Assembly (NCBI RefSeq): GCF_033097365.1
Contig: NZ_AP028461.1
Span: forward strand, 5,084,001 to 5,148,000
DNA length: 64,000 nt
From: Actinoplanes sichuanensis
GTDB taxonomy: Bacteria > Actinomycetota > Actinomycetes > Mycobacteriales > Micromonosporaceae
Reading direction: 5' to 3'
Within the stretch, counting starts at the first letter, position 1. Each line of letters begins with the position of its first letter. This document shows positions 45,298-60,959 of the stretch, piece after piece. Both the position numbers and the translations under genes were made by a program. The notes beneath the pieces are model-generated. The model worked only from the letters and a program-made list of their open reading frames with translations, was not told the origin of the DNA and did no database searches.

Positions 45298-46621
45298 CGA
45301 TCGGGTCGAGGGCGGTCCGGTCCAGGGTGTACCGGCGCTGCAGGAGGACGGCGACCGTCATCAGGGCGGCCGGGACCAGCGTGAAGCCGTAGCGGACCGC
45401 GGCCAGGGCGCCCGGTGACTGGGTGATCTGGTCGCCCGCCGCGCTCGCCACGAAACCCCCGGCCAGCAGAACCGCGGAGAACACGTAGGGGCCGACCGCG
45501 CCGCCGGTGGCCTCGGCCGCCGTCCACAGGCCGGTGTAGGCGCCGGCCCGGGCCGGGCCGCCCGGTCCGGACGCGGCGATCACGTCGGGCACCATCGACA
45601 ACGGCATCAGCTGCATCGCGGCGAACGACACACCCAGCAAGGCCATCGCCGCGACCAGGACCGGCAGGCCCGGCCCGGCCCCCAGGGCCAGCACCAGCGA
45701 ACCCGCCACGAAACCGGACTGGGCGGCCAGCAGGCAGCGCTGTTTGCCCAGGCGGCGGGCCGCCACCACCCACAGTGGCGTGGTCAGCACCGCCGGGCCC
45801 ATGAACAGGGCGACCAGGGCCGGGGTGAGTTCCGGTCGGCCCAGCTCGTACTTGGCGAAGTACGGCAGGGCGGCCAGCACCAGATTCATCGTGACCGCCA
45901 TGGTCAGGTACGAGGCGGCCAGCACCCGGAACTGCCGGTCGCGCAGGGCCGCCAGCAGTCCACCACGGTGCGCGGAGGCGACCGCCGGAGCCGACGGCGC
46001 GGCCCGGTTGAGCCGGCCCACCCCCAGGATGCCGGTCAGCATGGCGGCCAGCATGACCACGCCCAGGATCGCCGCCATCCGCCCGTAGTCGCCGACGTCC
46101 GGCACGGTCCCGGTGAGCAGCGGCGCGACCACCCCGCTGAGCAGCACACCGATGGTGATGACGGTGTTGCGGAACCCCATCAGCCGGGTCCGCTCGTGGT
46201 AGCCGATGCCGAGGTCGGCCGGGGTGGCCAGGTACGGCACCTGGTAGGCGGAGTACAGCAGGTTCCCGACGACCAGCGCCACCGCCACCCAGATCGCGGC
46301 CGGTGTCCCGCGCAGTCCGGCCGGTACCGCGAACAGCGCGACGAACGTGACGACCACCGCGCAGCCGACCAGCATCACCCGCCGGCGGTGACCGACGGCG
46401 GCCCGGTCGTCGTCGGTGACCCGGCCGATCCACGGATGCAGCACGATGTCGGCGATGTTCGGGACCAGCAGAGCCAGGCCGGCCACAGCCGGTGGCACGG
46501 CCAGCACGTCGGTCAGGAAGTAGAGCAGCAGGATGCCCGGCACGGTCACCCAGATCCCCATGCCGATCGAGCCGGTGGCGAACGGGAGGACGGCACGCAG
46601 AGGCAGGCGGCGATCGTTCAC
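45275..46621 (-). CDS. MFS transporter, GPH-like
   Basis: A 448-residue protein with 12 membrane helices. Family features include the loop motif HPWIGRVTDDDRAAVGHRRR after helix 2, LLYSAYQVPYLATPADLGIG, and HERTRLMGFRNTVITIG, resembling the glycoside-pentoside-hexuronide:cation symporter group. The substrate may be a sugar or glycoside; this is a family inference. It is divergent from the SARP-ATPase gene at 46714 and may be a target of it. Confidence 0.9.
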   Translation of the reverse strand: MNDRRLPLRAVLPFATGSIGMGIWVTVPGILLLYFLTDVLAVPPAVAGLALLVPNIADIVLHPWIGRVTDDDRAAVGHRRRVMLVGCAVVVTFVALFAVPAGLRGTPAAIWVAVALVVGNLLYSAYQVPYLATPADLGIGYHERTRLMGFRNTVITIGVLLSGVVAPLLTGTVPDVGDYGRMAAILGVVMLAAMLTGILGVGRLNRAAPSAPAVASAHRGGLLAALRDRQFRVLAASYLTMAVTMNLVLAALPYFAKYELGRPELTPALVALFMGPAVLTTPLWVVAARRLGKQRCLLAAQSGFVAGSLVLALGAGPGLPVLVAAMALLGVSFAAMQLMPLSMVPDVIAASGPGGPARAGAYTGLWTAAEATGGAVGPYVFSAVLLAGGFVASAAGDQITQSPGALAAVRYGFTLVPAALMTVAVLLQRRYTLDRTALDPIVTAPGGR

Positions 46622-46687
46622 AGGTTGTCCCTTCCGGGGAGCCGACGGAGCTGATGATAGAGACGTCGATGTGTAACGGCGGCGCGG

Positions 46688-46704
46688 TACGATCCGCCCG
46701 GAGG
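46688..46704 (+). promoter_or_regulatory. -10 TACGAT and ribosome site GGAGG for the SARP-ATPase gene
   Basis: TACGAT (46688-46693) is followed by GGAGG (46700-46704), 9 nt before GTG 46714. This decides the start over ATG 46654 or 46669, which would lie upstream of the promoter. Confidence 0.45.
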
Positions 46705-46713
46705 TCGAGAAAC

Positions 46714-49700
46714 GTGCCGGTCGATGCCGTTGATGAGCTGCGGTTTCAGGTGCTCGGCCCGTTGCGGGTCTGGCGCGACGGGGCCGAAGTGGACAGTGGT
46801 CCCCGTCAGCAGGCGCTGCTGCTCACCCTGTTGCTGACCCGGGTCGGGCGACCGGTCAGCACGGCCGAGCTGATCGACCTGATCTGGGGTGACGAGGCGC
46901 CCGCGAGCGCCCTCAACGTCATCCACAAGTACGTGGGGGCGCTGCGTCGTGTCCTCGAGCCGCGGCTGCCGGCCCGGGAGTCCGGCGGCTACCTGCATCG
47001 ACGCGGCAACAGCTACCTGTTCACCGCGGACGCGGACCGGCTGGACCTGGTCGCCTTCCGCGGACACGTCCGCTCGGCGGCCGCCGCGGAGGTCCGGGAG
47101 GCGGCGCTCGACCACTACCTGCGGGCGCTGGATCTGTGGCGTGGCCCGGCCGGCGGCGGTACGGCCACCGCCCTCGACGACGAGTTCTACCGCGCCTGCA
47201 CGGCCGCCGCCGACCTCGCCGTGTCGGTCGGCCGCCCGGACCGGGTGCTGCCCGCCCTGCACTTGGCCACGTCGATGGCGCCGTTCCACGAGCCGGTGCA
47301 GGCCGCCCTGGTCACCGCCCTGGGCGCGGCCGGGCGGCAGGCGGAGGCCCTCGCCGTGTTCCGCACGGTCCGGGAGCGGCTCGCCGACGAACTCGGCATC
47401 GATCCGGGCCCGGCGCTGCAGCAGGCGCACCACCACGTCCTGGCCCAGCCGCCGCTGCCGGTCACCACCGTCGAGCCGGCCCGACCGGAGAGCGACCTGG
47501 TCGGCCGGGTCGAGGAGTTCGCGCTGCTCCGGCGTACCGTCGAGGGTGCTCTGACCGGGGGCTCCGCGATCGGTGTCGTCGAGGGTGAGCCGGGTGTCGG
47601 GAAGACCCGGTTGTTGCAGGAGGCCGCCGCGGTGGCGACCCGGGGTGACGCCCTCGTGGTGTGGGGCCGGTGCCTGGAGGGTGCGGGCACCCCGTCGATG
47701 TGGCCGTGGGAGCAGGCGCTCGGCCGGATCGTGGCCGGCCTGCCCGCCCCGGCCCGGGAGAAGTGGCTGGCCGGCGAACTGGGCAGCATTCTGGAGCCCC
47801 GCGACGGCGCCGATCGGACGCTGCCCGACGGCAACGCCCAGTTTCGACTCTTCGAGCAGGCGGTCGCGCTCGTCGGTGAGTCGGCGGCGCAGCGGCCGAT
47901 CCTGCTGATCCTCGACGACCTGCAGTGGGCCGACGTCGCGTCGCTGCAGCTGTTCCATCACCTGGCGGGCCGGCTGCCGGGTGGCACCGCGATGATCGCC
48001 GCACTGCGCGACCGGGCGCCGACGCTGAGCCCGGCCCTGTCCCGGGTGCTGGCCACCGCGAGTCGGGTGCCCGGTCACCGGCGGCTGCGGCTCGGCCCGC
48101 TCGGGCTCGGTGAGGTGGCGGCGCTGGTCCGTACCGAGGTCGGCCGGGATCCGGACGGTGAGCTCGCGCGGGCCATCCACGACCGGACAGCCGGAAACCC
48201 GTTCTTCGTTCTGGAACTGTCCCGGCTGCTCAGCGAGAAGGGTTCGCTGGGTGTGCCGAACACGATCCGGGACGTGGTCCGCAGCCGGATGGCCGGGCTG
48301 GACGACCACGCCCGTGACCTGTTGCAGGTGGCCGCGCTGATCGGCCGGGACGTCGACCTGCGGCTGCTGTCGCGGGCCACCGGTGTCGGTGTCGCCGACT
48401 GCATGGACCGGCTGGAACCGGTGCAGGCGCTCGGCCTGCTCGAACCCGGGCCCGAGGATCCGTCGTCGATGCGCTTCGCCCACGACCTGGTCCGCGAGTC
48501 GGTGTCCGAGACGACGGCGAAACAGCAGATCATCCGGCTGCATCTGCGGGTCGCGGACGCGCTGGAACAGACCCACGCCGACGACGAGGTGGTCGCCGAA
48601 CGACTCGCCTACCACCTGTGGGCGGCCGGTCCGCTGGTCGAGCCGGTACGGACCGCGGAGGCGCTGATCCGGGCCGGTCGTTGTGCGGCCGGCAAGCTGG
48701 CGTTCGACTCCGCCAACCGGCAGCTGCGGTACGCCGTACAGGTGACCAGATCGTCGGGTTTGATGGATCTCGAATTGGCGGCGCTGACGCTGCTGGCGAT
48801 CGTGGTCCGGCGGCAGGCCGGCTTCGACGCCTCGACGGTGGACCTGCTGGACCGTGCCGAGTATCTGGCCGGCACGCTGGGCCGGGCCGCGGAGGCCGCC
48901 GACTTCCTGTTCATCCGCACCATGGGCGCCTACACCGCTCTCGAGAAGGACCGGGACCGGCTGGCCCGCCGGATGCACGAGATGGGGCAGGGTTCCACCG
49001 ATCCGGCCGTGCGGCGCTACGGCCGGCAGTCGTGGGGCCTGCATCAGTGGGATGTCGGCAACATCGGCGAAGCGGTTCGTCTCCTGTCCGAGAAGGATCA
49101 CGACACCGGTGTCCTGGCCGCTCCGCAGACCCCACTGCGCCGCGACGGCGCCATCCCCGGCGAGGGCCCCGGCTGGTGGGCCGTGACGACCGCCCTGCAC
49201 GACGACGTGCCGACCGCGCTGGCCCTGGTGGACAGCTGGGACGCGCCGAACGACCCCTACGCCGCGTCGGTCTGGGTCTACTACACCACCATGATCGCGT
49301 CGATGGCCGGGGACGCCGACCTGGCCCGCCGTGCCGGAGAACGCTGGGCGACCGAGGATCTCGAACGGCTGAACGCCCAGATCGGCCACTACGTCCGACA
49401 GAGCCGCTGCTGGGCGCGGGCGCTGACCGGCGACGATCCGGCGGGCGCCGCCGCCGAGGCCGAGGAGCACCTGGCCGCGAACCTGGCCGATCCGCCGCAG
49501 TGGGGTGTCGCGTTCCATCACGCGCTGGTCGCCGAGATGTGGCTGGCGGCTGGCCGCTGCGACCGGGCCACCGCCGCTCTGGACCGGGCCGACAGAGCCG
49601 CCCGGGAGTACGGCCAGCGATACGCCGAAGGCCTGTCCCTGCTGCTCAAAGCACGCCTCCTACAGGCGAGAGGGGAACCGTCGACAGTGGTCCGGGCAGC

Positions 49701-49782
49701 CGCCGAACAGGCGTCGAGTCGCTCCCGGTCGGGCGGGGCACTGCTGTTCGCCCGCCGCGCCGATGAGTTCCTCGCCGGATGA
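46714..49782 (+). CDS. Large SARP regulator with AAA_16 ATPase
   Basis: A 1022-residue regulator. An OmpR-like winged helix (about 8-95: FQVLGPLRVWRDGAEVDSGP, ALNVIHKYVGALRRVLEP) is followed by the BTAD to about 245 (ADELGIDPGPALQQAHHHVL). The AAA_16 domain starts with LVGRVEEFALLRR and has Walker A GEPGVGKTRL (about 291-300) and Walker B ILLILDDLQWAD. The C-terminal half is helical repeats. It is a SARP-LAL type fusion, usually a pathway-specific or global activator. The aminotransferase gene overlaps its stop by 4 nt. Confidence 0.92.
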   Translation: MPVDAVDELRFQVLGPLRVWRDGAEVDSGPRQQALLLTLLLTRVGRPVSTAELIDLIWGDEAPASALNVIHKYVGALRRVLEPRLPARESGGYLHRRGNSYLFTADADRLDLVAFRGHVRSAAAAEVREAALDHYLRALDLWRGPAGGGTATALDDEFYRACTAAADLAVSVGRPDRVLPALHLATSMAPFHEPVQAALVTALGAAGRQAEALAVFRTVRERLADELGIDPGPALQQAHHHVLAQPPLPVTTVEPARPESDLVGRVEEFALLRRTVEGALTGGSAIGVVEGEPGVGKTRLLQEAAAVATRGDALVVWGRCLEGAGTPSMWPWEQALGRIVAGLPAPAREKWLAGELGSILEPRDGADRTLPDGNAQFRLFEQAVALVGESAAQRPILLILDDLQWADVASLQLFHHLAGRLPGGTAMIAALRDRAPTLSPALSRVLATASRVPGHRRLRLGPLGLGEVAALVRTEVGRDPDGELARAIHDRTAGNPFFVLELSRLLSEKGSLGVPNTIRDVVRSRMAGLDDHARDLLQVAALIGRDVDLRLLSRATGVGVADCMDRLEPVQALGLLEPGPEDPSSMRFAHDLVRESVSETTAKQQIIRLHLRVADALEQTHADDEVVAERLAYHLWAAGPLVEPVRTAEALIRAGRCAAGKLAFDSANRQLRYAVQVTRSSGLMDLELAALTLLAIVVRRQAGFDASTVDLLDRAEYLAGTLGRAAEAADFLFIRTMGAYTALEKDRDRLARRMHEMGQGSTDPAVRRYGRQSWGLHQWDVGNIGEAVRLLSEKDHDTGVLAAPQTPLRRDGAIPGEGPGWWAVTTALHDDVPTALALVDSWDAPNDPYAASVWVYYTTMIASMAGDADLARRAGERWATEDLERLNAQIGHYVRQSRCWARALTGDDPAGAAAEAEEHLAANLADPPQWGVAFHHALVAEMWLAAGRCDRATAALDRADRAAREYGQRYAEGLSLLLKARLLQARGEPSTVVRAAAEQASSRSRSGGALLFARRADEFLAG

Positions 49783-50963
49783 GCGGGCTGTCCGAAATCG
49801 CCCGCGGCCTGTCGGCGCCGCAGGGGTTCGTCGTCGCCAGTCAGGCCGTCGCCACGCCCGACGCGATCCGGCTGGTCGGTGGTGTCCCGGCGGCCGAGGC
49901 GCTGCCGGTGCGGGAGTTCGCCCGGGCGTCGGCCGAGCTGTGGCAGGACCCGGCGGCCGCTATCGCGAGCCTGCAGTATTCGGCGCCGCACGGATTCCCC
50001 GGCCTGCGGGCGTGGATCGCGAACCGGGAGGGTGTCGACCCGGACCGGATCGTGATCACCAACGGTGGCATGCACGGCCTCACCCTCGCGGTGCTGACGC
50101 TCGTGGAACGGGACGCGACGGTCGCGGTCGACGACCCGGTGTTCCCGGGCTTTCTGTGGGCACTGGAGGTCGCCACCAAACGGGTCCTGCCGGTGCCGCT
50201 GGACGCCGACGGGCTCGACGTCGAGCACCTGGCCCGGCGCCTGGCCGCCGGGGAACGGATCGCCGCCGTGTACACGGTGCCCGACTTCCACAATCCGGCC
50301 CAGGTCTGCCTGTCCGCCGACCGGCGACGAGCCCTGGTCGAGTTGGCCGACCGGTACGGCTTCCACGTGATCGTCGACGACCCGTACCGGGAGCTGCGGT
50401 TCGCCGGCCGCGACCAGGGCGTGCGCGCGTTCCACGATTCGGACCGGGCGGTCCACATCAACACGTTCACCAAGACCCTGGGCCCGGGCTGGCGGGTCGG
50501 CTGGATGGTGCTGCCCGGACACCTCGTCGACCCGGTCATCCGCCTGCGCAACCGGCTCGACGTGCACACCGGCTCGGTCACCCAGGCCCTCGTCGAACGG
50601 GTCGTCACCAGCGACGACACGTGGTTCGACGGGCTGGTGCGCGATGCCGCCGCGATCTACCGGGAGCGCGCCGGGGTGCTGGTCGACGCGCTCCACGAGC
50701 ATCTTCCCGGCGCCTTCGAGATCAGGGCGCCGGAGGGTGGACTGTTCCTGTGGGCGCGGCTCACCGACGACCGCCTCGACCCGGCGGACCTGTTCCGGCG
50801 GGCGGCCGCCCGCGGTGTGCTCTACCAGCCGGGACAGTTCTTCGCCGCGGACCCGGACAACAGCTCGTCGGACCGGTTCCTGCGGTTCGCCTACAGTGAC
50901 CGGTCGCCGGACGAGTTGCGGGAGGCGGTCCGGCGGCTGGCGTCGGCCTTCAGGTCCGGATGA
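49779..50963 (+). CDS. PLP-dependent class I/II aminotransferase
   Basis: A 394-residue fold-type I enzyme of the MocR/2-aminoadipate group. The PLP lysine is K232 in NTFTKTLGPGWRVGW. Other motifs are TNGGMHGLTLAVLTL, DDPVFPGFLWALE, YTVPDFHNPAQVCLS and VDDPYRELRFAG. ATG 49779 overlaps the SARP stop by 4 nt (ATGA), so the enzyme is made only with that regulator. It probably transaminates an amino acid for a small pathway. Its end overlaps the convergent 2TM gene by 14 bp. Confidence 0.92.
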   Translation: MSGLSEIARGLSAPQGFVVASQAVATPDAIRLVGGVPAAEALPVREFARASAELWQDPAAAIASLQYSAPHGFPGLRAWIANREGVDPDRIVITNGGMHGLTLAVLTLVERDATVAVDDPVFPGFLWALEVATKRVLPVPLDADGLDVEHLARRLAAGERIAAVYTVPDFHNPAQVCLSADRRRALVELADRYGFHVIVDDPYRELRFAGRDQGVRAFHDSDRAVHINTFTKTLGPGWRVGWMVLPGHLVDPVIRLRNRLDVHTGSVTQALVERVVTSDDTWFDGLVRDAAAIYRERAGVLVDALHEHLPGAFEIRAPEGGLFLWARLTDDRLDPADLFRRAAARGVLYQPGQFFAADPDNSSSDRFLRFAYSDRSPDELREAVRRLASAFRSG

Positions 50964-51159
50964 CCCGGCGGGCCGCGGCCCGGACGCCCCAGACGTGCGC
51001 GATCAGCCCGGCACCCCAACCGATGATCGACCAGATCGGCCAGAAATGCAGATCCGGGGTGAACAGCCACCACACCAGGACCTGGATCAGGTTGGCGGTG
51101 AAATAGCACAGGGCATGGATCTGTACGCCCCGCCGCATCCCCTCGTCACTCTTGGACAT
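50950..51159 (-). CDS. 2TM domain small membrane protein
   Basis: A 69-residue protein with two membrane helices (about 14-34 and 38-58) and the motif GVQIHALCYFTANLIQVLVW, PIWSIIGWGAGLIAHVW, typical of 2TM-domain proteins. Its start overlaps the end of the alpha/beta hydrolase gene by 14 bp, so the two are probably translated together. The role is unknown. Confidence 0.8.
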   Translation of the reverse strand: MSKSDEGMRRGVQIHALCYFTANLIQVLVWWLFTPDLHFWPIWSIIGWGAGLIAHVWGVRAAARRVIRT

Positions 51160-51853
51160 TCTCGGCGACCGCCTTCTCGATGAGGGCCACCGCGGCGGCC
51201 GGGTGGGAGACGAACACCAGATGAGAGGCGCCGTCGACGACCGTGGCCGTGGCGCCGGAACGCTCGGCCATGAACTCCTGCGCGGCCGGCGGAATGATCC
51301 GGTCAGCCCCGCTGATCAGGTTGTAGGTGGGAATCGAGTGCCACGCCTGCGGCCCGGAGGCCGGTTCGCCGAGGGCCGCACCGGTCGCCGGTCGCTGGGT
51401 GAGCGCCAGCAGCGCGGCCTGCTCGGCGGGCAGGTCACCGGCGAAGTTCCGGTGGAACACACCCGCATCGATGTACAGGTCGACCTGCCCCTCAGCCAGC
51501 GGAACCGGCCTGAGCGACTGACCCACCGTGCTGCCCGGAAACCGCTCGACCAGCTGCTGCACGCTCTCCCCGGTCTCCGGGACGAACGCCGCCAGATAGA
51601 CCAGCGCCTGGACGTCGTCGGTGGCGGCAGCCGAGATCACCGCACCGCCGTACGAGTGCCCGACCAGAACGATCGGTCCGGCAATCGACGCCAACAGCGC
51701 CCGGACCTGGGCCGCGTCGGACGACAGCCCGCGCAGTGGGTTCGGTGCCACCACCACCGGATATCCGCCGGCCACCAGCTGTTCGATGACCGGCTGGAAA
51801 CCGCTGCCGTCGGCGAAGGCCCCGTGCACCAGCACGATCGTCGGCTTTGTCAT
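51146..51853 (-). CDS. Alpha/beta hydrolase
   Basis: A 235-residue cytosolic hydrolase. It shows TIVLVHGAFADGSG, the nucleophile elbow GHSYGG, APNPLRGLSSDAAQ, and a late GASHLVFVSHP with the catalytic histidine. It is a close paralogue of the exported-looking hydrolase at 54550-55314 (same TIVLVHGAFAD, NPLRG, SSD and HSYGG blocks). The gene is divergent from the fusion oxidoreductase at 51989, placing one paralogue on each side of it. Family members hydrolyse esters or act as C-C hydrolases; the substrate is unknown. Confidence 0.9.
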   Translation of the reverse strand: MTKPTIVLVHGAFADGSGFQPVIEQLVAGGYPVVVAPNPLRGLSSDAAQVRALLASIAGPIVLVGHSYGGAVISAAATDDVQALVYLAAFVPETGESVQQLVERFPGSTVGQSLRPVPLAEGQVDLYIDAGVFHRNFAGDLPAEQAALLALTQRPATGAALGEPASGPQAWHSIPTYNLISGADRIIPPAAQEFMAERSGATATVVDGASHLVFVSHPAAAVALIEKAVAENVQE

Positions 51854-51988: not shown

Positions 51989-54538
51989 ATGGACGCGCTC
52001 GAAGAATCCGATGTGGTCGTCATCGGATCAGGAATGGGTGGTCTCGCGGCCGCCCGCACGATCGCACAATTCGGCCGGCGACGCGTTCTCGTCCTGGAGC
52101 AGCACTACACGCCGGGCGGGATGACCCACGAGTTCACCCGCGACGGCCGCTACCGGTTCGGCACCGGACTGCACTACATGAGCGCCGACGCCGGCCCGTT
52201 CCTCGACTTCATGACCGACGGCCGGGTGCAACTCAACCCACTGCCGGACGACTACGACGTACTGCACTTCCCGGATTTCGACTTCACCGTCCCGGCCGGG
52301 CGCGACCGGCTGCGCGACCGTCTGACGCAGTGCTTCCCGGACTCGACGGGCGAGATCGACAGATTCTTCACCACGATCCGGCGGGGCATGACCGGCCTGG
52401 CCGCCCGCAACGTCCTCGCCGCCATGCCGGCCGGGATCCGCCGCCTCGGCACGCCCGTCGTCGAACGGCTCTACCCGTCGACGTACCGGTCGCTGGCCGA
52501 ACAGATACGCCTCAGCTTCCGCGACCCCGAACTGCGGGCCGTCCTCGCCGCCCGCTGGGGCCTCTACGGAATCCCACCGCGATCCAGCGCCTTCGGCTAC
52601 CACGCCGCGGTCCCGTTGACGTTCTTCATGAACGGCACGGCCCATCCGGTCGGCGGTCCCGGCGAGATCGGCCGGATCATTCTGGAGACCCTGCAGCGGT
52701 ACGGCGTGGAAGTGCGCCCGAGGCAACGCGTGCAACGGGTCACCGTGGACGGTGGCCGGGCCACCGGCGTGGACGTGGTGGACACCGCGAGCGGGCGCCG
52801 CTACCACGTCGAAGCCGGCACCGTCGTCTCCGCGACCGGGGTACGCAACACGTACGCCCTGATCGGCCGGGAGAACGAACTGGCCGAACTGCCCCCGGAG
52901 CCGTCGGCCGCCATGCTGTTCCTCGGCATGAAACGGTCCCCCGCCGAATTCGGGCTGCACGGCGAGAACCACTGGTTCATGCCCGACCTCGACGGCGGCG
53001 ACGGCACCCTCTACGTGTCGTTCCCGTCGCTCAACAATCCGGCCGCCCGGACCCACACCGTCGAGGTGCTGGAACTCGTCGACCCGGCGATCGTCGACAG
53101 ATGGCGGACGATGCCCGCCGACCAGCGGCCGGACGACTACCGACGGTTCAAGGAGGAGACCACCGAACGGCTGCTCGACCGACTGGAACGGCAGTGGCCC
53201 GGGTTCCGGGCGGCGATCGAGTTCACCGAGCTCGCCACCCCGCTCACCTTCGAGAACTACCAGCACAGCGTGCGCGGCTCGTTCTACGGCCTGGCGGCCA
53301 CACCGCAGCGGCTCCGATCGTCGCGCGCGGGTTGCCGTACCCCCGTGAAGAATTTGATCGTCGCCGGTCAGGACGCCTGGGGCTCCGGCGTCGTCGGGGC
53401 GCTGGCCGGCGGATTGATGGCCGCGAACGCGGTACTCAGCCCGCGCCAGACCGGGCGGATGTGGCGGACCGTGCAGTCCGCCATCCCGGTCCGGAATCCG
53501 CAGACGCCCTGGTCGGGATACCTGCGGGTGGCCGCGATCGAGGAGCTGACGCCGACCGTCCGGCGGATCCGGCTGGCTCCCCTGGACGGCGCGACGATGC
53601 CGTTCACCTTCGTCGCCGGGCAGTACCTCAAGATCGAACTGCCGGTCGCGGTCGAACCGATCGAGCGCTCCTACTCGATCTGCAGCGGCCCCGGCCAGAC
53701 CGGGTTCGTGGAGATCGCCGTCAAACACGAGCCGGGCGGACTCGGATCGGGTTTCCTGCACACCGAACCGGAGACCGGCCAGGCGCTCCGGGTCAGCGGC
53801 CCCCACGGCGACTTCACCTGGCAGCCGGGCGACGACACCGGGACGCTGCTGCTGATCGGCGGCGGGGTCGGGATGACACCGCTGATGAGCGTACTCGCGG
53901 CGGCCGCCGACGCCGGATACGACGGGCGGATCGTGCTGCTCGCCGCCCACCGGTCCGAAACGGAGCGACTCTTCGGCACCGAGCTCGCCGCCCTCCAGGA
54001 ACGGCTGCCCGGGCTGCGGAGGCTCACCTTCGTCAGCGGACGCAACGGGCGGATCAGCGCGGGCACCCTGCGGCCGTTCGTCACCACCACGACCCGGGCC
54101 CACCTCTGTGGACCGGCGCCGATGATGCAGGACCTGATCGGACACCTGATCGACCTCGGGATGCCGCGGGACCGAATCCACACCGAGGCCTTCACATCCG
54201 GGCGCAGCCGGCAGACCCGCAGGGAGAAAGCGCAGGCCATCGCCCGTACCGCCGAAGAAGCCGGAATCGCCGCGTTCCGCATCGACGTCCAGGACTCCGG
54301 GCCCGGCTTCCCGTGTCGGCCCGGGCAGACCGTCCTCGACGCGGCCAACCTGGCCGACGTCAAGCTGCCGCAGTCCTGCGGCGAGGGCTCCTGCGGTACC
54401 TGCCGGGTGCTGGTCCGCGCCGGCGAACACGAGACCGACAGCCGCGGCATGTTCTCCACCGCCGAACTGGCCGAAGGCTGGCGGCTGGCCTGCCAGACCC
54501 TGCCCACCGGCGACCTCACCATCGCACTCGACAAATGA
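51989..54538 (+). CDS. Fusion: RetSat/CrtI-like flavoenzyme + FNR reductase + [2Fe-2S] ferredoxin
   Basis: An 849-residue multidomain redox enzyme; ATG 51989 follows GAGGGG. Residues 1-500 resemble all-trans-retinol saturase/carotenoid desaturase-isomerases: FAD motif VIGSGMGGLAAA (GxGxxG at 13-18), QHYTPGGMTHEFTRDGRYRF, GTGLHYM, and the C-terminal FAD loop VAGQDAWGSGVVGALAGGLM. Residues about 508-735 are a ferredoxin-reductase module: RSYSIC (FAD), GGGVGMTPLMS (NAD(P)H) and CGPAPMM. Residues about 765-849 are a plant-type ferredoxin with C797-x4-C802-x2-C805 and C835. The protein could thus take electrons from NAD(P)H to its own desaturase/saturase centre. I know no characterised protein with this order. 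It heads a four-gene operon. Confidence 0.9.
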   Translation: MDALEESDVVVIGSGMGGLAAARTIAQFGRRRVLVLEQHYTPGGMTHEFTRDGRYRFGTGLHYMSADAGPFLDFMTDGRVQLNPLPDDYDVLHFPDFDFTVPAGRDRLRDRLTQCFPDSTGEIDRFFTTIRRGMTGLAARNVLAAMPAGIRRLGTPVVERLYPSTYRSLAEQIRLSFRDPELRAVLAARWGLYGIPPRSSAFGYHAAVPLTFFMNGTAHPVGGPGEIGRIILETLQRYGVEVRPRQRVQRVTVDGGRATGVDVVDTASGRRYHVEAGTVVSATGVRNTYALIGRENELAELPPEPSAAMLFLGMKRSPAEFGLHGENHWFMPDLDGGDGTLYVSFPSLNNPAARTHTVEVLELVDPAIVDRWRTMPADQRPDDYRRFKEETTERLLDRLERQWPGFRAAIEFTELATPLTFENYQHSVRGSFYGLAATPQRLRSSRAGCRTPVKNLIVAGQDAWGSGVVGALAGGLMAANAVLSPRQTGRMWRTVQSAIPVRNPQTPWSGYLRVAAIEELTPTVRRIRLAPLDGATMPFTFVAGQYLKIELPVAVEPIERSYSICSGPGQTGFVEIAVKHEPGGLGSGFLHTEPETGQALRVSGPHGDFTWQPGDDTGTLLLIGGGVGMTPLMSVLAAAADAGYDGRIVLLAAHRSETERLFGTELAALQERLPGLRRLTFVSGRNGRISAGTLRPFVTTTTRAHLCGPAPMMQDLIGHLIDLGMPRDRIHTEAFTSGRSRQTRREKAQAIARTAEEAGIAAFRIDVQDSGPGFPCRPGQTVLDAANLADVKLPQSCGEGSCGTCRVLVRAGEHETDSRGMFSTAELAEGWRLACQTLPTGDLTIALDK

Positions 54539-54549
54539 GGGATCGATTC

Positions 54550-55314
54550 ATGACGACCACCCGACGCACCTTCCTCGCCGGTTCCGCCGCTGTCGCGGCC
54601 GGCATCCGGACACCGTCGAAGCCGAAACCGACGATCGTCCTGGTACACGGCGCGTTCGCGGACGCGAGCGGCTGGAATCAGGTCGCCGAACGGCTCCTGT
54701 GTGACGGTCATCCGGTCATCGCGCCGGCCAATCCGCTACGCGGGGTGTCCAGCGACTCCGCCTATCTGGCGAACATCCTGGCCACCCTCGGCGGACCGCT
54801 CGTGCTCGTGGCCCACTCCTACGGCGGCATCGTCGTCACCAACGCGGCCACCGGCAACCCGAACGTGAAAGCGCTGGTCTACGTGGCGGCGTTCGCGCCC
54901 GACCAGGGCGACACGCTGATCGGGCTGCAGACCCGGTTCCCCGGCAGCCGGCTCGACGAGGCGGCACTCGACTTCCGACCGTACGGTGACGGGCTCGTCG
55001 ACGGATACCTCAAGCGTGACGCGTTCCGGCCGGTGTTCGCCGGCGACCTGCCGTCGACCACCACGTCGCTGATGTGGGCCGGTCAGCGCCCCGCCGACAC
55101 CCGCACCCTGGGTGAGCCGTCAGGCGCACCGGCCTGGCGGAGCATCCCCTCGTGGTATCTCGCGGCCCGCGACGACCGGGTGCTGCCGGTCGCCGCGCAA
55201 CGGTTCATGGCGCAGCGGGCCGGGTCACGGCTGCGGGAGGTCGGCGCCTCGCACGTCGCCATGATCTCGCAGCCCGCGGTGACCGCCGAGGTCGTCAAGC
55301 GCGCGGCGAGCTGA
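54550..55314 (+). CDS. Alpha/beta hydrolase with Tat-like N-terminus
   Basis: A 254-residue hydrolase, paralogous to the one at 51146. ATG 54550 follows GAGGGA at 7 nt; ATG 54535 overlaps the fusion-gene stop (ATGA) and is an alternative. The N-terminus TTTRRTFLAGSAAVAAGI looks like a short Tat signal, suggesting export, which its paralogue lacks. Motifs: TIVLVHGAFADASGW, nucleophile AHSYGG, late GASHVAM. It is the second gene of the operon. Confidence 0.88.
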   Translation: MTTTRRTFLAGSAAVAAGIRTPSKPKPTIVLVHGAFADASGWNQVAERLLCDGHPVIAPANPLRGVSSDSAYLANILATLGGPLVLVAHSYGGIVVTNAATGNPNVKALVYVAAFAPDQGDTLIGLQTRFPGSRLDEAALDFRPYGDGLVDGYLKRDAFRPVFAGDLPSTTTSLMWAGQRPADTRTLGEPSGAPAWRSIPSWYLAARDDRVLPVAAQRFMAQRAGSRLREVGASHVAMISQPAVTAEVVKRAAS

Positions 55315-55319
55315 CCGGC

Positions 55320-56558
55320 ATGCAACCAGCTCTCCTCGCGCTTGCGCTCGGCACGTTCGCGATCGGCACCGGTGAGTTCGGCAGCAACGGGATCATCCAG
55401 TTGTTCGCCACCGACCTGGGCGTGTCCATTCCGGTCGCCACCCACGCGATCACCGCGTACGCCGTCGGGGTGGTGATCGGTTCGCCGGCCATCACCCTGC
55501 TGGCGGCGCGCGTCAACCGCCGTACCCTCCTGCTCGGTCTGATGGTGTTGTTCCTGATCGGCAACGCCCTCTCGGCGGTCGCACCGAACATCACCCTGCT
55601 CGTGGTCTTCCGGTTCGTGGCCGGATGTGTCCAGGGCGCGTTCTTCGGAGCGGGCGCCGCCGTCGCCGCCTACCTTTACGGGCCCGGCCGCGGAGGCAAG
55701 GCGTTCGCCACCGTGATGGGCGGGCTCACCATCGCCACCATCGTCGGGTCGCCGCTCGGCACCCTCATCGGCCAGCAGGCCGGATGGCGGGCGATGTACT
55801 GGGCCGTCGTCGCGATCGGGCTGGTCGCCGCAGGCGCCCTGTTCATCTGGCTGCCGCGCACCCGCGACCTGCACGGCGGCTCGATCACCGGCGAACTCGG
55901 GGCACTGCGCGCGGCCGCCGTCTGGCGGATGGTCGCGGTCGCCTCGCTCGGCATCTCCAGCATCTTCGCCGTCTACACGTTCATCGGGCCGTTCGTCACC
56001 GACGCGGCCGGGCGGGACGCGTCGCTCGTGCCCATCGCACTGGCCGTGTTCGGGGTCGGGATGGCCGTCGGCAACAGTCTCGGCGGGCGGATCGCCGACC
56101 GATCCGAGAGCAACGGCCTGATCCGAGGGTACGGGGTGACGCTGCTCCTGCTCGTGCCGATCGGTCTCGGCGGCGGCGACATCGCGGTCCTGTTGCCGTG
56201 CCTGTTCGGGGTGGGCGCGGCGATGATGTTCGCGATCCCCACCATTCAGGTGCGTCTCACCACGCTCGCGCCGGGCGCACCGACCCTGATGGGTGCCCTC
56301 AACCTGGCCGCCCTCAACCTGGCCAACTCGCTCGGCGCGGTCGGTGGGGCCGTCGCCCTCGACGCCGGCGGCGGCACCCTCTCCACGGTGTGGGCCGGAT
56401 TCCTCCTGACCACCGCCGGGTTGCTGCTCTACCTGGTGCGACGGCGCCCGTCCTCTTCGGCCCGGCAGCCGTCGTCCTCGGCCCAGTGCCCGTCGTCTTC
56501 GGCCCAGCAGCCTCTCTCTCCGACCCGACTGCCTTTCTCTTCGGTGCCGCGGCCGTGA
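55320..56558 (+). CDS. MFS exporter, DHA1/AraJ-like
   Basis: A 412-residue transporter with 12 membrane helices. ATG 55320 is 5 nt after the hydrolase stop. Typical motifs: ALGTFAIGTGEFGSNGII, the helix 2-3 loop AARVNRRTLLLGLMV, and FRFVAGCVQGAFFGAGAAVA, as in AraJ/CmlR-like drug and sugar efflux proteins. The extreme C-terminus is a low-complexity tail of PSSSA repeats encoded by three 21-bp tandem repeats. The stop overlaps the next gene by 4 nt (GTGA). It probably exports the product or substrate of the pathway. Confidence 0.9.
   Translation: MQPALLALALGTFAIGTGEFGSNGIIQLFATDLGVSIPVATHAITAYAVGVVIGSPAITLLAARVNRRTLLLGLMVLFLIGNALSAVAPNITLLVVFRFVAGCVQGAFFGAGAAVAAYLYGPGRGGKAFATVMGGLTIATIVGSPLGTLIGQQAGWRAMYWAVVAIGLVAAGALFIWLPRTRDLHGGSITGELGALRAAAVWRMVAVASLGISSIFAVYTFIGPFVTDAAGRDASLVPIALAVFGVGMAVGNSLGGRIADRSESNGLIRGYGVTLLLLVPIGLGGGDIAVLLPCLFGVGAAMMFAIPTIQVRLTTLAPGAPTLMGALNLAALNLANSLGAVGGAVALDAGGGTLSTVWAGFLLTTAGLLLYLVRRRPSSSARQPSSSAQCPSSSAQQPLSPTRLPFSSVPRP
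56448..56510 (+). repeat. Three tandem 21-bp repeats at the end of the MFS gene
   Basis: Units at 56448-56468, 56469-56489 and 56490-56510 each encode PSSSA plus two variable residues. In the next frame the same bases read VLFGPAAVVLGPVPVVFGPA, which misleadingly extends the downstream gene upstream. Confidence 0.8.
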
Positions 56559-58069
56559 ACGACGAACAGTTCCGCCGCCTCGCCGCCTACGGTCAGGCCG
56601 AACACGCCGTGCCCGGCCGGGATCTGTTCACCACCGGCGACCGGTCCTACGACCTCTTCCTGCTCGAAACGGCAGCCGTCGAGATCGTCCGCGATCAACG
56701 GGTGATCTTCCGAGCCGGGCCCGGTGACTTCCTCGGCGAACTCGGCCTGCTCACCGGCCAACACGTCTACCTGACCGGCCGGGTCATCTCGGCGGGCACC
56801 GTGATCCGGCTCGGCGCCGCGAACCTGCGCCGTGCCCTGGCCGAACACGCCGACCTCGCCGACCTCCTGATCGAGGCGTTCCGGCAGCGACGCGAGGTGA
56901 TCCGGACGACCGCGGGCACCGCCCTGCGGCTCGTCGGTCGTCCGGACACCGCGCTCGCGCTGCGCACCTACCTGGCCCAGCTCCTGCTCCCGCACGCCTG
57001 GCAGGAGACCTACCCCGGCCTCACCCCCGACGACCTGCCGGCCGCCGTCATCGACCGGACGGTGCTGCGCCGCGCGACTCCCGGCGCCGTCGCGGAAGCT
57101 CTCGGCCTGACCTACCGCCCCGACGACCGCGAGGTCGACCTGGTCGTCGTGGGCGCCGGCCCGGCGGGACTGGCCGCCGCCGTCTACGCCGCGTCCGAGG
57201 GCCTCAGCACGGTGTTGCTCGACCGCGGCGGCATCGGCGGCCAGGCCGCCAAAACCGCCCGAATCGAAAACCATCTGGGCTTTTCACACGGCATCAGCGG
57301 CGACGAACTGACCCGCCTGGCGATGCTGCGGGCCCTCAAATTCAACGTCAGAATCCATTCCCCGTGTACGGCCACCGCCCTCGATCTCACCGATCCGCAC
57401 CGGCCGACGGTCCAGCTCGACGGCGGTGCTCGGATCAGGTGCCGCGCGGTGATCGCCGCGACCGGAGCGAACTACCGCCGCCTCGACATCCCCGGCTGGG
57501 CCGCGTTCGAGAGGGCGGGCTGCATCCGCTACGCGGCCACCGAACCGGACGTCCGCGACTACGCGAACCAGCCGGTGACGGTCCTCGGCGGCGCCAACTC
57601 GGCCGGTCAGGCGGCCCTGTCGCTGGCCGCCCACAACGCCACGGTCGACCTGATCGTCCGAGGCACCCGTGTGGGAGCCAGGATGTCCACCTACCTGGTC
57701 GACCGGATCCGGGCCCACCCACTCATCCGGCTCCACCTCGGCAGCACCGTCGACGCGCTGATCGGCGGCGACACCCTCAGCGGCGTGGTCATGTCCCGAG
57801 CCGAGACCCTGGACAGCCGAGCGCTGTTCTGTTTCATCGGAGCCACCCCGGAGACCTCGTGGTTGACCGGCGTGGCCACCGACGACAACGGTTTCCTCCG
57901 CACTCCGGGCCCGCTCCCGTTCCAGACGAGCACCCCACGGGTCTTCGCCGTCGGCGACCTGCGCGCCGGCTCCACCAAGCGGGTGGCCACCGCCGTGGGC
58001 GACGGAGCCGGAGCCGTCTCCTCGGTACACACCGCCTTGGCCGCCCGACTCCCCACACCCGCCACCTAG
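56555..58069 (+). CDS. cNMP-binding domain fused to thioredoxin-reductase-like flavoprotein
   Basis: A 504-residue protein. GTG 56555 overlaps the MFS stop by 4 nt. Residues about 10-130 form a cyclic-nucleotide-binding domain (DRSYDLFLLETAAVEIVRD, GPGDFLGELGLLTGQHVYLT). Residues about 190-500 form a TrxB-like domain with FAD motif VVGAGPAGLAAAVYAASEG, GGIGGQAAKTARIENHLGF, NADPH motif VLGGANSAGQAALSLA and the end motif VFAVGDLRAGSTKRVATAVG. The usual redox CxxC is absent: the region reads IRYAATEPDVRD. So it cannot reduce thioredoxin in the normal way. It may be a ligand-controlled NAD(P)H oxidoreductase serving the operon. Confidence 0.9.
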   Translation: MNDEQFRRLAAYGQAEHAVPGRDLFTTGDRSYDLFLLETAAVEIVRDQRVIFRAGPGDFLGELGLLTGQHVYLTGRVISAGTVIRLGAANLRRALAEHADLADLLIEAFRQRREVIRTTAGTALRLVGRPDTALALRTYLAQLLLPHAWQETYPGLTPDDLPAAVIDRTVLRRATPGAVAEALGLTYRPDDREVDLVVVGAGPAGLAAAVYAASEGLSTVLLDRGGIGGQAAKTARIENHLGFSHGISGDELTRLAMLRALKFNVRIHSPCTATALDLTDPHRPTVQLDGGARIRCRAVIAATGANYRRLDIPGWAAFERAGCIRYAATEPDVRDYANQPVTVLGGANSAGQAALSLAAHNATVDLIVRGTRVGARMSTYLVDRIRAHPLIRLHLGSTVDALIGGDTLSGVVMSRAETLDSRALFCFIGATPETSWLTGVATDDNGFLRTPGPLPFQTSTPRVFAVGDLRAGSTKRVATAVGDGAGAVSSVHTALAARLPTPAT

Positions 58070-59108
58070 AAACGGTGGAGGCGCGGGATGCTGTGCAGCG
58101 TCACCGGGAGGTCGACAATGGCCGGACCCTCGACGGTCGTGCCGTCGTCGGTGAACCAGGTGCCCGGTGGGACGGCGATGCGGCGGGTGGTCGCGGACGG
58201 CGACAGCACCGGGGCCACCAGCAGGTCGGGACCCAGGAGGAACTGGTCGACGACCTCGGCCAGTTCACTGTAGTGGTAGGCCATCGGACGCAGGATCGGC
58301 TCTCCCGTGGTGGCGGCCGAATCGATCAGCGTGTCCAGTAGGGGCCACAGCGCCTCCCGAACCCGTAACGCCTCCCGGACCGCTGCCTGGTGAGGTGGGT
58401 CGAGACGGTCCGGGAGGACGGAGAACTGCATCATCGGCGTACACGCCGCCAGTTGCGCGTATCTGACGTAGAGCTCCTGGTCCCGGCCACCGGCCACACT
58501 GACCGCGCTGATCTCCCCGCCGCCGACCATGTCCGGGCACGTGTAGGCGTACCCCAGAAGTGATTGTGCGGCCATCTCCGGAATCAGCGACCGCAACCCG
58601 TCGTTGCCCCAGGTCGGGGGTTTGTCCCGGAGCCGCTGGGCGAGCGGCTCGCCGCCGAGCCCCCAGCAGGCCCGCACCTCGTTGTACGGATACCCGAGCC
58701 CCACCGAAGCATCACCGCGAACCCGGCTTCCCGCAGCGTCGCGATCATGCCCGGCGGGTCGGGGAACCGGGCCCGGTCGAAGACCCATGTCCCGTACGCC
58801 GGCGACCACGAGTCGTCGATCATCAGCACGCCCGGCGGCATCCCCAGGTCGAGGATGCGCCGGGCGTACCCGAGGACCGACTCCTGGGTCGGCGTGTACG
58901 GCATGTCGATCCACGTGTTGTACTGCGGCGCCCGGAACATCCGCCGTGCCGGTGCCCGCCCGGCGGGCCGGATCTGGGAGAGGTAGGCGTCAGCCGAAAC
59001 GGCCAGGTCCCGGGCGAACGCGGTCCGTCCGAACGGCATGGCCGTCCCGTCGAGGACCGCGCCACCCCACCAGAGTTCCCCCGGCAGCAGGGGTATCCGC
59101 AACGTCAT
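58066..59108 (-). pseudogene. GH31 glycosidase remnant with internal deletion and frameshift
   Basis: ATG 59108 overlaps the PL11 stop by 4 nt, so this was the second gene of that operon. From 59108 to about 58712 it reads as GH31 (TFGxWP-like context RAPQYNTWIDMPYTPTQESV, GMPPGVLMIDDSWSPAYGTW, FPDPPGMIATLREAGFAVML). It then shifts frame and resumes to 58066 as GLGYPYNEVRACWGLGGEPL, RDKPPTWGNDGLRSLIPEMA and YTCPDMVGGGE. The section that normally contains the catalytic nucleophile aspartate is missing between the two parts. It shows no sign of being functional. GH31 members in pectin loci act on alpha-linked side chains. Confidence 0.85.
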
Positions 59109-60901: not shown

Positions 60902-60945
60902 CGAAACCTCCTGGAGGTTCGAGATCGGGGATGAAGAGCCACGCA

Positions 60946-60959
60946 TTAAAACGTTTACA
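60946..60959. promoter_or_regulatory. LacI-type operator before the PL11 gene
   Basis: TTAAAACGTTTACA contains the palindrome AAACGTTT (60949-60956) centred on CG, as in LacI-family sites. Similar motifs precede the genes at 62991 and 63187. Confidence 0.55.

Follow-up and report, generated by a model that had tools for sequence, protein, structure and literature searches.

Retinol saturase (RetSat) saturates the 13,14 bond of retinol and, to our knowledge, its physiological electron donor has not been established; nor do we know of any CrtI, CRTISO or RetSat enzyme that carries a fused reductase and ferredoxin. Work on this flavoprotein superfamily is made difficult by redox partners that vary from enzyme to enzyme or have yet to be identified: in the excerpts of PMC3382138 (articles are cited here by PMC number, from excerpts), CRTI works with O2 or quinones and CRTISO requires reduced FAD, while CRTI supplied with reduced FAD isomerizes prolycopene but not 15-cis-phytoene. 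For Castellaniella defragrans, the excerpted text of PMC4109377 describes CtmAB as COG1233 proteins, a name for the superfamily that we take from that paper and not from a COG assignment of the fusion described below, together with a 2Fe-2S ferredoxin (ctmE) and an NADH:ferredoxin oxidoreductase (ctmF); mutants in ctmA, ctmB or ctmE could not use limonene and still used perillyl alcohol. In the P450 CYP116B46, electrons pass from NAD(P)H through FMN and a [2Fe-2S] cluster to the catalytic center (PMC7260179, excerpt).

Results

Analysis of a 64,000-nucleotide stretch of the Actinoplanes sichuanensis genome (the window) confirmed a single open frame for 849 aa, starting with ATG, whose translation and Pfam matches reveal three modules in one chain (cf. 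Table 1), as an earlier note made from the sequence had claimed. The protein opens with a full-length flavin amine oxidase-type domain bearing a dinucleotide motif, which makes it a member of the CrtI/CrtISO/RetSat superfamily. It continues with an FNR-type reductase, in which FAD_binding_6 is followed by NAD_binding_1 and the R-x-Y-S and C-G-P motifs are present, and it ends in a plant-type [2Fe-2S] ferredoxin recognized both by Fer2 and by the spacing C-x4-C-x2-C-x29-C.

Table 1 Features of the fusion locus in window coordinates. Residue ranges refer to the fusion protein, and the bit scores given for its Pfam matches exceed the models' own cut-offs.
Feature	Coordinates	Strand	Basis and remarks
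AfsR/SARP-like regulator, large C-terminal part	46576..49782	+	NF053617, 132.3 bits against a cut-off of 1430; start chosen by us
Class I/II aminotransferase	49779..50963	+	PF00155
Divergent alpha/beta hydrolase of 235 aa, separated from the fusion start by 135 bp	51146..51853	-	PF12697
Single-chain fusion: CrtI/CrtISO/RetSat-superfamily flavoprotein, FNR-type reductase, plant-type [2Fe-2S] ferredoxin	51989..54538	+	Pfam, 25 copies
N-terminal flavoprotein domain, residues 1-483	51989..53437	+	Amino_oxidase PF01593 (16-483), 58.3 bits against a cut-off of 19.8; NAD_binding_8 PF13450 (11-75), 44.1 bits
Linker 1, residues 484-511	53438..53521	+	Column conservation; boundaries set by us
FNR-type reductase, residues 512-737 (flavin part 512-612, NAD(P)-binding part 613-737)	53522..54199	+	FAD_binding_6 PF00970 (513-611), 51.3 bits; NAD_binding_1 PF00175 (622-715), 36.0 bits
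C-terminal plant-type [2Fe-2S] ferredoxin, residues 767-846, C797/C802/C805/C835	54287..54526	+	Fer2 PF00111 (767-840), 59.0 bits
Second alpha/beta hydrolase, 11 bp past fusion stop	54550..55314	+	PF12697
MFS transporter, Cmx/CmrA-type efflux pump relative	55320..56558	+	PF07690; start chosen by us
cNMP-binding domain fused to thioredoxin-reductase-like flavoprotein	56555..58069	+	PF00027 and PF07992; GTG start chosen by us

Including the copy in the window, 25 distinct full-length fusions were found, the other 24 being 61-83% identical to it. Their hosts are Actinoplanes and its kin, Nonomuraea, Acrocarpospora, a small related family and a Streptomyces contig; the last copy (L011) lies on a contig of 6.6 kb and could be a contamination of that record. 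Genome searches covered one phylum, contigs were scanned by exact peptide patterns, which retrieve close relatives only, and the family survey was made with the N-terminal domain as its only query and covered families other than that of Nonomuraea; viral contigs yielded no relative with which the alignment could be deepened. Four open frames of 836-896 aa (L102-L105) were rejected as further fusions, as they gave no FNR-ferredoxin match at E<=1e-3. In the alignment, G13/G15/G18/E37 of the dinucleotide motif, the R-x-Y-S flavin motif (560-563), the C-G-P motif (707-709) and the cysteines C797, C802, C805 and C835, all four already named in the earlier note, are invariant in 25/25 copies, and conservation is lowest in linker 1 (a mean of 0.64 over its columns vs 0.74-0.81 elsewhere). 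Three full-length comparisons gave the window copy a dN/dS of about 0.22-0.32, taken as the ratio of the dN and dS values; since such a ratio is accompanied by 24 other copies preserved in one frame, the fusion lies far beyond chance. In a tree of 17 of the 25 fusions and 19 stand-alone relatives (near-duplicate stand-alone loci were omitted), the fusions form one clade, separate from the others, with a support of 100/100. The host genome is a single contig of 12.1 Mb, which together with the other full-length copies rules out an assembly join or an isolated fusion, outcomes that the earlier note had named among its refutations, along with homologs that are always split. Only remnants of the gene were detected in two close relatives.

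We then asked how far the N-terminal domain can be classified. Its scores stay below the cut-offs of the CrtISO equivalog model TIGR02730 (116.2 bits vs 586.9) and of the CrtI phytoene desaturase model TIGR02734 (104.5 vs 238.1) and far below that of TIGR02733 (91 bits), and no RetSat match occurs among the best 25 of the protein's 52 family matches. The designation "RetSat/CrtI-like" proposed previously thus appears tenable at the level of the superfamily only, no CrtI, CrtISO or CrtD cut-off being reached. The genome also holds a second CrtI-superfamily stretch, 4.2 Mb away and 26% identical, with one stop within the match, beside which an IDI-like frame was read by eye; the fusion therefore need not be the carotenoid desaturase of this genome, an identification that is not favored.

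Among the matches listed, the reductase part is nearest to the PaaE, GbcB and BenC models, which describe donors for reductive half-reactions. The nearest named one, PaaE (TIGR02160), reaches 151.2 bits against a cut-off of 420.8, and the ferredoxin subfamily model TIGR02008 reaches 40.3 bits against a curated cut-off of 81.15. In the PDB, the sequences that match the reductase best belong to a P450 reductase and to a dioxygenase reductase. An AlphaFold2 model built from a nine-sequence alignment (mean pLDDT 54.8, pTM 0.40) was good in the reductase part only, and Foldseek matched it to reductase parts of flavohemoglobins and to CYP116B, with nothing on the N-terminal domain or on domain contacts; for the C-terminal half, the CYP116B family ranks with the best matches in sequence as well as in the confidently modeled part. 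Superfamily members of the CrtO/CrtP type have oxygenation roles, and in the fusion, too, the N-terminal flavin might react with O2, once supplied with electrons by the relay, and oxygenate a terpenoid. An NAD(P)H chain of its own is a typical oxygenase feature, the reductase part is closest, among the matches listed, to oxygenase reductases, and the CrtO model does match weakly (42.5 bits against a cut-off of 1000); that match, however, spans 107 residues only, and no flavin-monooxygenase or P450 family is found among the 12 Pfam matches, so that we regard such an activity as improbable. The earlier note had assigned FAD to the reductase as a second flavin. The flavin and NAD(P)H motifs are indeed intact, but to judge from the sequence this cofactor could also be FMN, by analogy with CYP116B46 (PMC7260179, excerpt).

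The fusion is the first of a tight run of four genes, followed by an alpha/beta hydrolase, an efflux-type MFS transporter and a thioredoxin-reductase-like gene, and the four are probably co-transcribed. With the ATG at 54535 as its start, the second hydrolase would share 4 bp with the end of the fusion gene, and the thioredoxin-reductase-like gene overlaps the MFS stop by 4 bp. A twin-arginine-like stretch was noticed by eye at the N-terminus of the second hydrolase. The transporter remains below the cut-off of its Cmx/CmrA-type family (NF033135, 266.1 bits vs 400), as the thioredoxin-reductase-like protein does for TIGR01292 (175.9 vs 343.45). Alpha/beta hydrolases are strongly linked to the fusion gene: of the 15 genomes with an ortholog of the divergent one (at least 73% identical), 12 have it no more than 10 kb away from the fusion. 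A limit of E<=1e-90 used in a further comparison was set post hoc, in view of this ortholog search. Homologs of the AfsR/SARP-like regulator (labeled "BTAD" in our scans), some of them weak, occur near 18/25 fusion genes, and those of the aminotransferase near six. A role in anti-phage defense was rejected, as PADLOC returned weak partial matches only for the three proteins submitted. The thioredoxin-reductase-like gene raises the question of whether the protein might be an NAD(P)H-dependent donor that passes its electrons mainly to an outside partner such as this neighbor, with the N-terminal domain sensing or storing a ligand. A homolog lies near 9/25 fusion genes, but none was found in the sampled flanks of the other 16 loci, and the N-terminal domain, with its intact FAD motif, is the best conserved module of all (mean column conservation 0.81); we consider this arrangement very unlikely.

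Plasmid genes of proteobacteria are the closest stand-alone relatives in the tree, and such annotation as they carry reads "NAD(P)/FAD-dependent oxidoreductase". Of the five closest, one is unannotated; aldehyde dehydrogenase genes lie within 5 kb of two, and 3-(methylthio)propionyl-CoA ligase genes are likewise within 5 kb of two. Such surroundings are no less compatible with an oxidative role. An FNR-ferredoxin gene adjoins 3 of 20 stand-alone relatives (13 + 7 distinct loci) and was not found by BLAST in the flanks of the other 17, mostly about 1.5 kb and in a few cases 5-8 kb. All three belong to genus g24 (L097-L099, three genomes), where the superfamily flavoprotein and FNR-ferredoxin genes stand in tandem on the same strand, 22 bp apart. 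This flavoprotein is placed outside the fusion clade on a long branch, and the tandem sits in a biosynthetic-looking cluster.

The main rival to a reductive reading is an oxidative use resembling that of limonene dehydrogenase, in which the N-terminal domain would dehydrogenate, or hydroxylate with water, an allylic C-H and the electrons would exit via the built-in ferredoxin and reductase, with NAD(P)+ or some other molecule accepting them. Besides the aldehyde dehydrogenase genes just mentioned, the Castellaniella limonene system (ctmA, ctmB, ctmE, ctmF), with its own ferredoxin and reductase (PMC4109377, excerpt), speaks for it. On the other hand, (i) the covalent-flavin histidine consensus of limonene dehydrogenase and delta-24 sterol desaturase given in the excerpt of PMC11061730 (G-F-L/R-x-N/S-T/L-H-A) is found in 0/25 fusion copies, the comparison being with this published consensus; (ii) limonene dehydrogenase consists of two different, adjacent flavoprotein subunits, whereas the fusion is one chain with one such domain and has hydrolases as immediate neighbors; (iii) the acceptor of positive potential that limonene dehydrogenase needs, according to the excerpted part of PMC12583861, fits NAD(P)+ poorly; and (iv) Pfam detected no alcohol or aldehyde dehydrogenase among the five scanned neighbors of the fusion in the window. 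We therefore think the oxidative direction rather unlikely.

Discussion

These findings led us to favor, with slightly better than even confidence, a self-sufficient NAD(P)H-driven flavoenzyme whose N-terminal flavin saturates or isomerizes a lipophilic substrate at a C=C bond and which most likely serves to modify an ester-linked natural product or xenobiotic. The central FNR-type domain would have its flavin reduced by NAD(P)H, electrons would then pass singly through the C-terminal ferredoxin, and this would in turn reduce the FAD of the N-terminal domain, a transfer that we propose for the fusion; the reduced FAD could saturate or, in a non-redox manner, isomerize a double bond in a molecule that would be lipophilic and probably either conjugated or terpenoid. 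Together with the hydrolases, the MFS exporter, the thioredoxin-reductase-like protein and the AfsR/SARP-like regulator, the enzyme would most likely act on an ester-linked compound of the kind named above. The reductive reading is supported by the motifs preserved in every copy, the CYP116B46-like order, a reductase nearest PaaE/GbcB/BenC, the need of CRTISO for reduced FAD, the g24 tandem, the second CrtI-superfamily stretch of the genome and the hydrolase linkage. Against it stand CtmAB, alone among the characterized enzymes of this kind that we found in having both a ferredoxin and a reductase of its own, and described in the excerpt of PMC4109377 as limonene-oxidizing, the 17 stand-alone relatives with no adjacent FNR-ferredoxin gene, and the remnants in two close relatives. 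More tentatively, and with clearly less than even confidence, the fusion may found a class of self-sufficient double-bond reductases/isomerases, encoded in a regulated hydrolase-efflux operon of actinomycetes that disarms or remodels a polyene-like natural product.

A chain carrying its own donor would let NAD(P)H drive reductive or isomerase chemistry in vitro, and the direction of electrons in members of the superfamily with a ferredoxin of their own would become directly testable against the Castellaniella system. The matches listed in the open-licence PMC literature contained no corresponding single-chain protein, in line with the earlier note, which knew of no characterized protein with this order. 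CrtI, CRTISO and RetSat have the superfamily domain and the FAD motif in common with the fusion. CtmAB, together with CtmE and CtmF, resembles it as phytoene-dehydrogenase-family flavoproteins with their own ferredoxin and reductase, but is formed by separate genes with two catalytic subunits and is described as oxidative (PMC4109377, excerpt). The partnership is thus precedented, but in split form, both there and in genus g24, where the flavoprotein is about 31% and the FNR-ferredoxin 27-28% identical to the fusion. PNPOx-FNR-Fd and MOSC-FNR-Fd fusions in relatives (L029, L034) have a similar C-terminal reductase-ferredoxin cassette with another N-terminal domain. Of the earlier interpretation, the claim that one chain brings along both its reductase and its ferredoxin stands, whereas P450-BM3 is not its closest analog: the order of a catalytic domain, an FNR/phthalate-dioxygenase-type reductase and a C-terminal [2Fe-2S] ferredoxin, as found by Pfam and as given in the excerpt of PMC7260179, equals that of the CYP116B P450s (P450-RhF type; PDB 6laa, which is CYP116B46, and 6kbh). 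The catalytic domain of these is a heme P450, absent from the 12 Pfam matches of our scan, and that of the fusion is a CrtI-superfamily flavoprotein; as a biocatalyst, the fusion could match the role that CYP116B P450s play in hydroxylation.

Domain architecture and gene neighborhood

The fusion gene encodes a flavoprotein, an FNR-type reductase, and a [2Fe-2S] ferredoxin in one chain, and the uninterrupted reading frame together with the order of the Pfam domains bore out the three-module architecture proposed in the earlier note. NCBIfam models for carotenoid isomerase, CrtI, and CrtD matched the N-terminal half and those for PaaE, GbcB, and BenC the C-terminal half, while none of the best 25 of the 52 matches, CrtI included, reached the model's cut-off. 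The RetSat/CrtI-like label therefore held at the level of the superfamily and nothing narrower, and we call the N-terminal family the CrtI/CrtISO/RetSat superfamily or COG1233, the latter following the usage for CtmAB in PMC4109377 and not a direct assignment of the fusion protein. A sequence search of the PDB with the N-terminal 500 residues returned five weak relatives, the foremost being gamma-carotene desaturase (4rep, 49 bits), followed by phytoene dehydrogenase (4dgk, 28 bits). The best matches of the whole protein, all across the C-terminal half, were reductases of the P450 and dioxygenase kinds together with 6kbh and 6laa, two full-length self-sufficient P450s. The AlphaFold model was of poor quality.

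Features of the fusion protein and its surroundings in the window (start codons of the genes downstream of the fusion are our choice)
Feature	Position	Strand	Basis
Fusion gene	51989-54538	+	849 residues, no inner stop
Flavin amine oxidase/NAD_binding_8 domain	up to residue 483		Pfam, above own cut-off
FAD_binding_6	residues 513-611		Pfam, above own cut-off
NAD_binding_1	residues 622-715		Pfam, above own cut-off
Fer2	residues 767-840		Pfam, above own cut-off
Second alpha/beta hydrolase	135 bp upstream of fusion	divergent	Pfam
Alpha/beta hydrolase	11 bp after fusion (4 bp overlap with upstream ATG)	+	Pfam
MFS transporter	5 bp after downstream hydrolase	+	Pfam
cNMP-binding domain fused to thioredoxin-reductase-like flavoprotein	56555-58069, 4 bp overlap with MFS	+	Pfam
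GH31 gene, seemingly broken by frame change	58066-59108	-	
GH31, N-terminal part	58584-59108	-	GH31 Pfam models; frame differs from C-terminal part
GH31, C-terminal part	58066-58914	-	GH31 Pfam models; frame differs from N-terminal part
Rhamnogalacturonan lyase family 11 protein, beside GH31	59105-60946	-	RGL11_C, 249 bits

We infer that the fusion and the three genes downstream of it form an operon. The GH31 and RGL11 genes next to it are possibly a locus for plant cell-wall degradation.

Recurrence and conservation of the fusion

Scanning genome_contigs with exact peptide patterns yielded eight loci, with matches starting at residues 1-27 and ending at 846-848; by record name they belong to Actinoplanes (2), Paractinoplanes (2), Winogradskya, Acrocarpospora, Nonomuraea, and Streptomyces, the last of these possibly a contamination, since its contig is only 6.6 kb long. 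In the window's own family (354 genomes), the N-domain query (E ≤ 1e-35) matched in 30 genomes: 19, including the source genome, carry the fusion in one frame, two, both close relatives, carry remnants alone, and nine only stand-alone relatives, that is, superfamily flavoproteins devoid of the fused reductase-ferredoxin. One genome (G727) holds both the fusion and a stand-alone relative. The remnants cover residues 5-121 (L091, genome G460) and residues 3-27, 122-223, and 514-538 (L090, genome G485), and thus the gene is dispensable in some species. Two of the five genomes in a further family (that of G047) have the fusion. When the phylum was sampled evenly, E ≤ 1e-100 was reached by one of 396 genomes, the source genome itself; the fusion is therefore rare and clustered. 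None of 72,556 plasmid records contained a site that spans 80% of the protein.

Altogether, 25 distinct single-chain copies were assembled. The earlier note had allowed for homologs that are always split and for an isolated fusion or assembly join here; instead, the fusion is real and recurrent. Tested motif positions were invariant in all 25 copies except for residue 624 (G, A, or S). The dN/dS values of the window copy versus three others were 0.22, 0.32, and 0.28, and conservation was highest in the N-domain (0.81) and lowest in linker 1 (0.64; residues 484-511, ahead of the reductase).

Evolutionary history

A maximum-likelihood tree was built from 36 N-domains, comprising 19 stand-alone proteins and 17 of the 25 fusions. 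A single branch, supported at 100/100, sets all sampled fusions apart from the rest. Closest to them among the stand-alone sequences are plasmid genes from Photobacterium, Tistrella, Paraburkholderia, Variovorax, and Acidovorax, which attach through inner branches of 90-93 bootstrap that are not starred. Transfer of the fusion between lineages is suggested, because the Nonomuraea and Streptomyces copies nest among those of the Actinoplanes family, by a weak fork and, for Streptomyces, on a short contig. One split pair (L085) fell elsewhere, on a long branch flagged by a program warning; if it is correctly placed there, the partnership of superfamily flavoprotein and FNR-ferredoxin arose at least twice.

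Neighbors and split partnerships

The neighbors of all 25 fusion loci were surveyed by tblastn (1e-15) in flanks of 0.15-9.5 kb per side. Homologs of either hydrolase were found at 19 loci, of an AfsR/SARP-like regulator at 18 (weak matches included, without a control), of the thioredoxin-reductase-like protein at nine, of the MFS transporter at eight, and of an aminotransferase at six. An ortholog of the divergent hydrolase (at least 73% identity) occurred in 15 of 21 fusion genomes, within 10 kb of the fusion in 12 and on another contig in three, against a background of 2-18 hydrolase homologs per genome at E ≤ 1e-30. Family-wide, at E ≤ 1e-90, a limit picked after seeing the results in fusion genomes, 15 of the 19 fusion genomes had the ortholog, compared with 9 of 335 others (Fisher p 5e-17, uncorrected for kinship). 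In the PDB, none of this hydrolase's relatives scored above 38 bits; pyrethroid hydrolase and salicylic acid-binding protein 2 are two of them.

An FNR-ferredoxin gene adjoined the flavoprotein gene at 3 of 20 stand-alone loci; BLAST of the surroundings (flanks mostly 1.5 kb) found none beside the other 17. The three come from three genomes of one genus (g24), in which 22 bp separate a 501-aa superfamily gene from a 397-aa FNR-ferredoxin gene downstream, both confirmed by Pfam; an 82-aa ACP-like gene comes next. Read by eye, the surroundings of these pairs (L097-L099; G565, G581, G596) look like a biosynthetic cluster, with ACP-like, UbiD-like, MaoC-like, acyl-CoA-dehydrogenase-like, and lysine/ornithine N-hydroxylase-like frames. 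Stand-alone genes of several actinobacteria (L100-L103, L105, also L107 and L110) adjoin frames that by eye resemble 3-oxoacyl-ACP synthase, and annotated ketoacyl-synthase genes lie near stand-alone relatives on plasmids of Streptomyces and Pseudalkalibacillus. By eye and annotation, this looks like a recurring partnership for assembly of the polyketide/fatty-acid type. In related genomes, a similar FNR-ferredoxin cassette is fused after a PNPOx domain and after a MOSC/YiiM domain (L029, L034), and the cassette is thus promiscuous.

Proposed mechanism and comparison with known systems

By analogy with the self-sufficient P450 CYP116B46, whose matching module order and whose electron path are described in PMC7260179, we lean modestly toward a reductive, NAD(P)H-driven enzyme. 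In the CYP116B46 crystal the cluster lies about 25 Å from the heme, and therefore even that enzyme is taken to depend on domain motion or relay residues. In the fusion, electrons would pass from NAD(P)H to the central flavin, then to the [2Fe-2S] cluster, and finally to the N-terminal FAD, which in its reduced form may serve isomerization or saturation. Reduced FAD serves saturation in retinol saturase. Isomerization with reduced FAD is described for CRTISO and for CRTI, which isomerizes prolycopene but not 15-cis-phytoene (PMC3382138).

An oxidative use resembling that of limonene dehydrogenase would fit the genes for aldehyde dehydrogenase and CoA ligase that lie close to some of the nearest stand-alone relatives; however, the covalent-flavin consensus given in PMC11061730 is absent from all 25 fusion copies, and limonene dehydrogenase reportedly requires a high-potential acceptor (PMC12583861), which makes this use rather unlikely. 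That the fusion is an oxygenase seems more doubtful still, and we give very little credence to its being an electron donor for a partner protein.

The earlier note knew of no characterized protein with this module order, and we found none of this single-chain kind in the open-licence PMC literature, which is no proof of absence in print; the arrangement itself is genuine and conserved. It combines two known kinds of protein, CrtI-superfamily flavoenzymes and self-sufficient reductase-ferredoxin fusions. In Castellaniella defragrans, as described in PMC4109377, one cluster holds ctmA and ctmB (COG1233), ctmE (2Fe-2S ferredoxin), and ctmF (NADH:ferredoxin oxidoreductase), and ctmA, ctmB, or ctmE mutants grow on perillyl alcohol but not on limonene. 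There, superfamily flavoproteins have their own ferredoxin and reductase as separate genes, whereas the fusion is a single chain. Given this system and the split pairs of g24, a ferredoxin-linked superfamily enzyme is already known, and what is new is its union in one chain.
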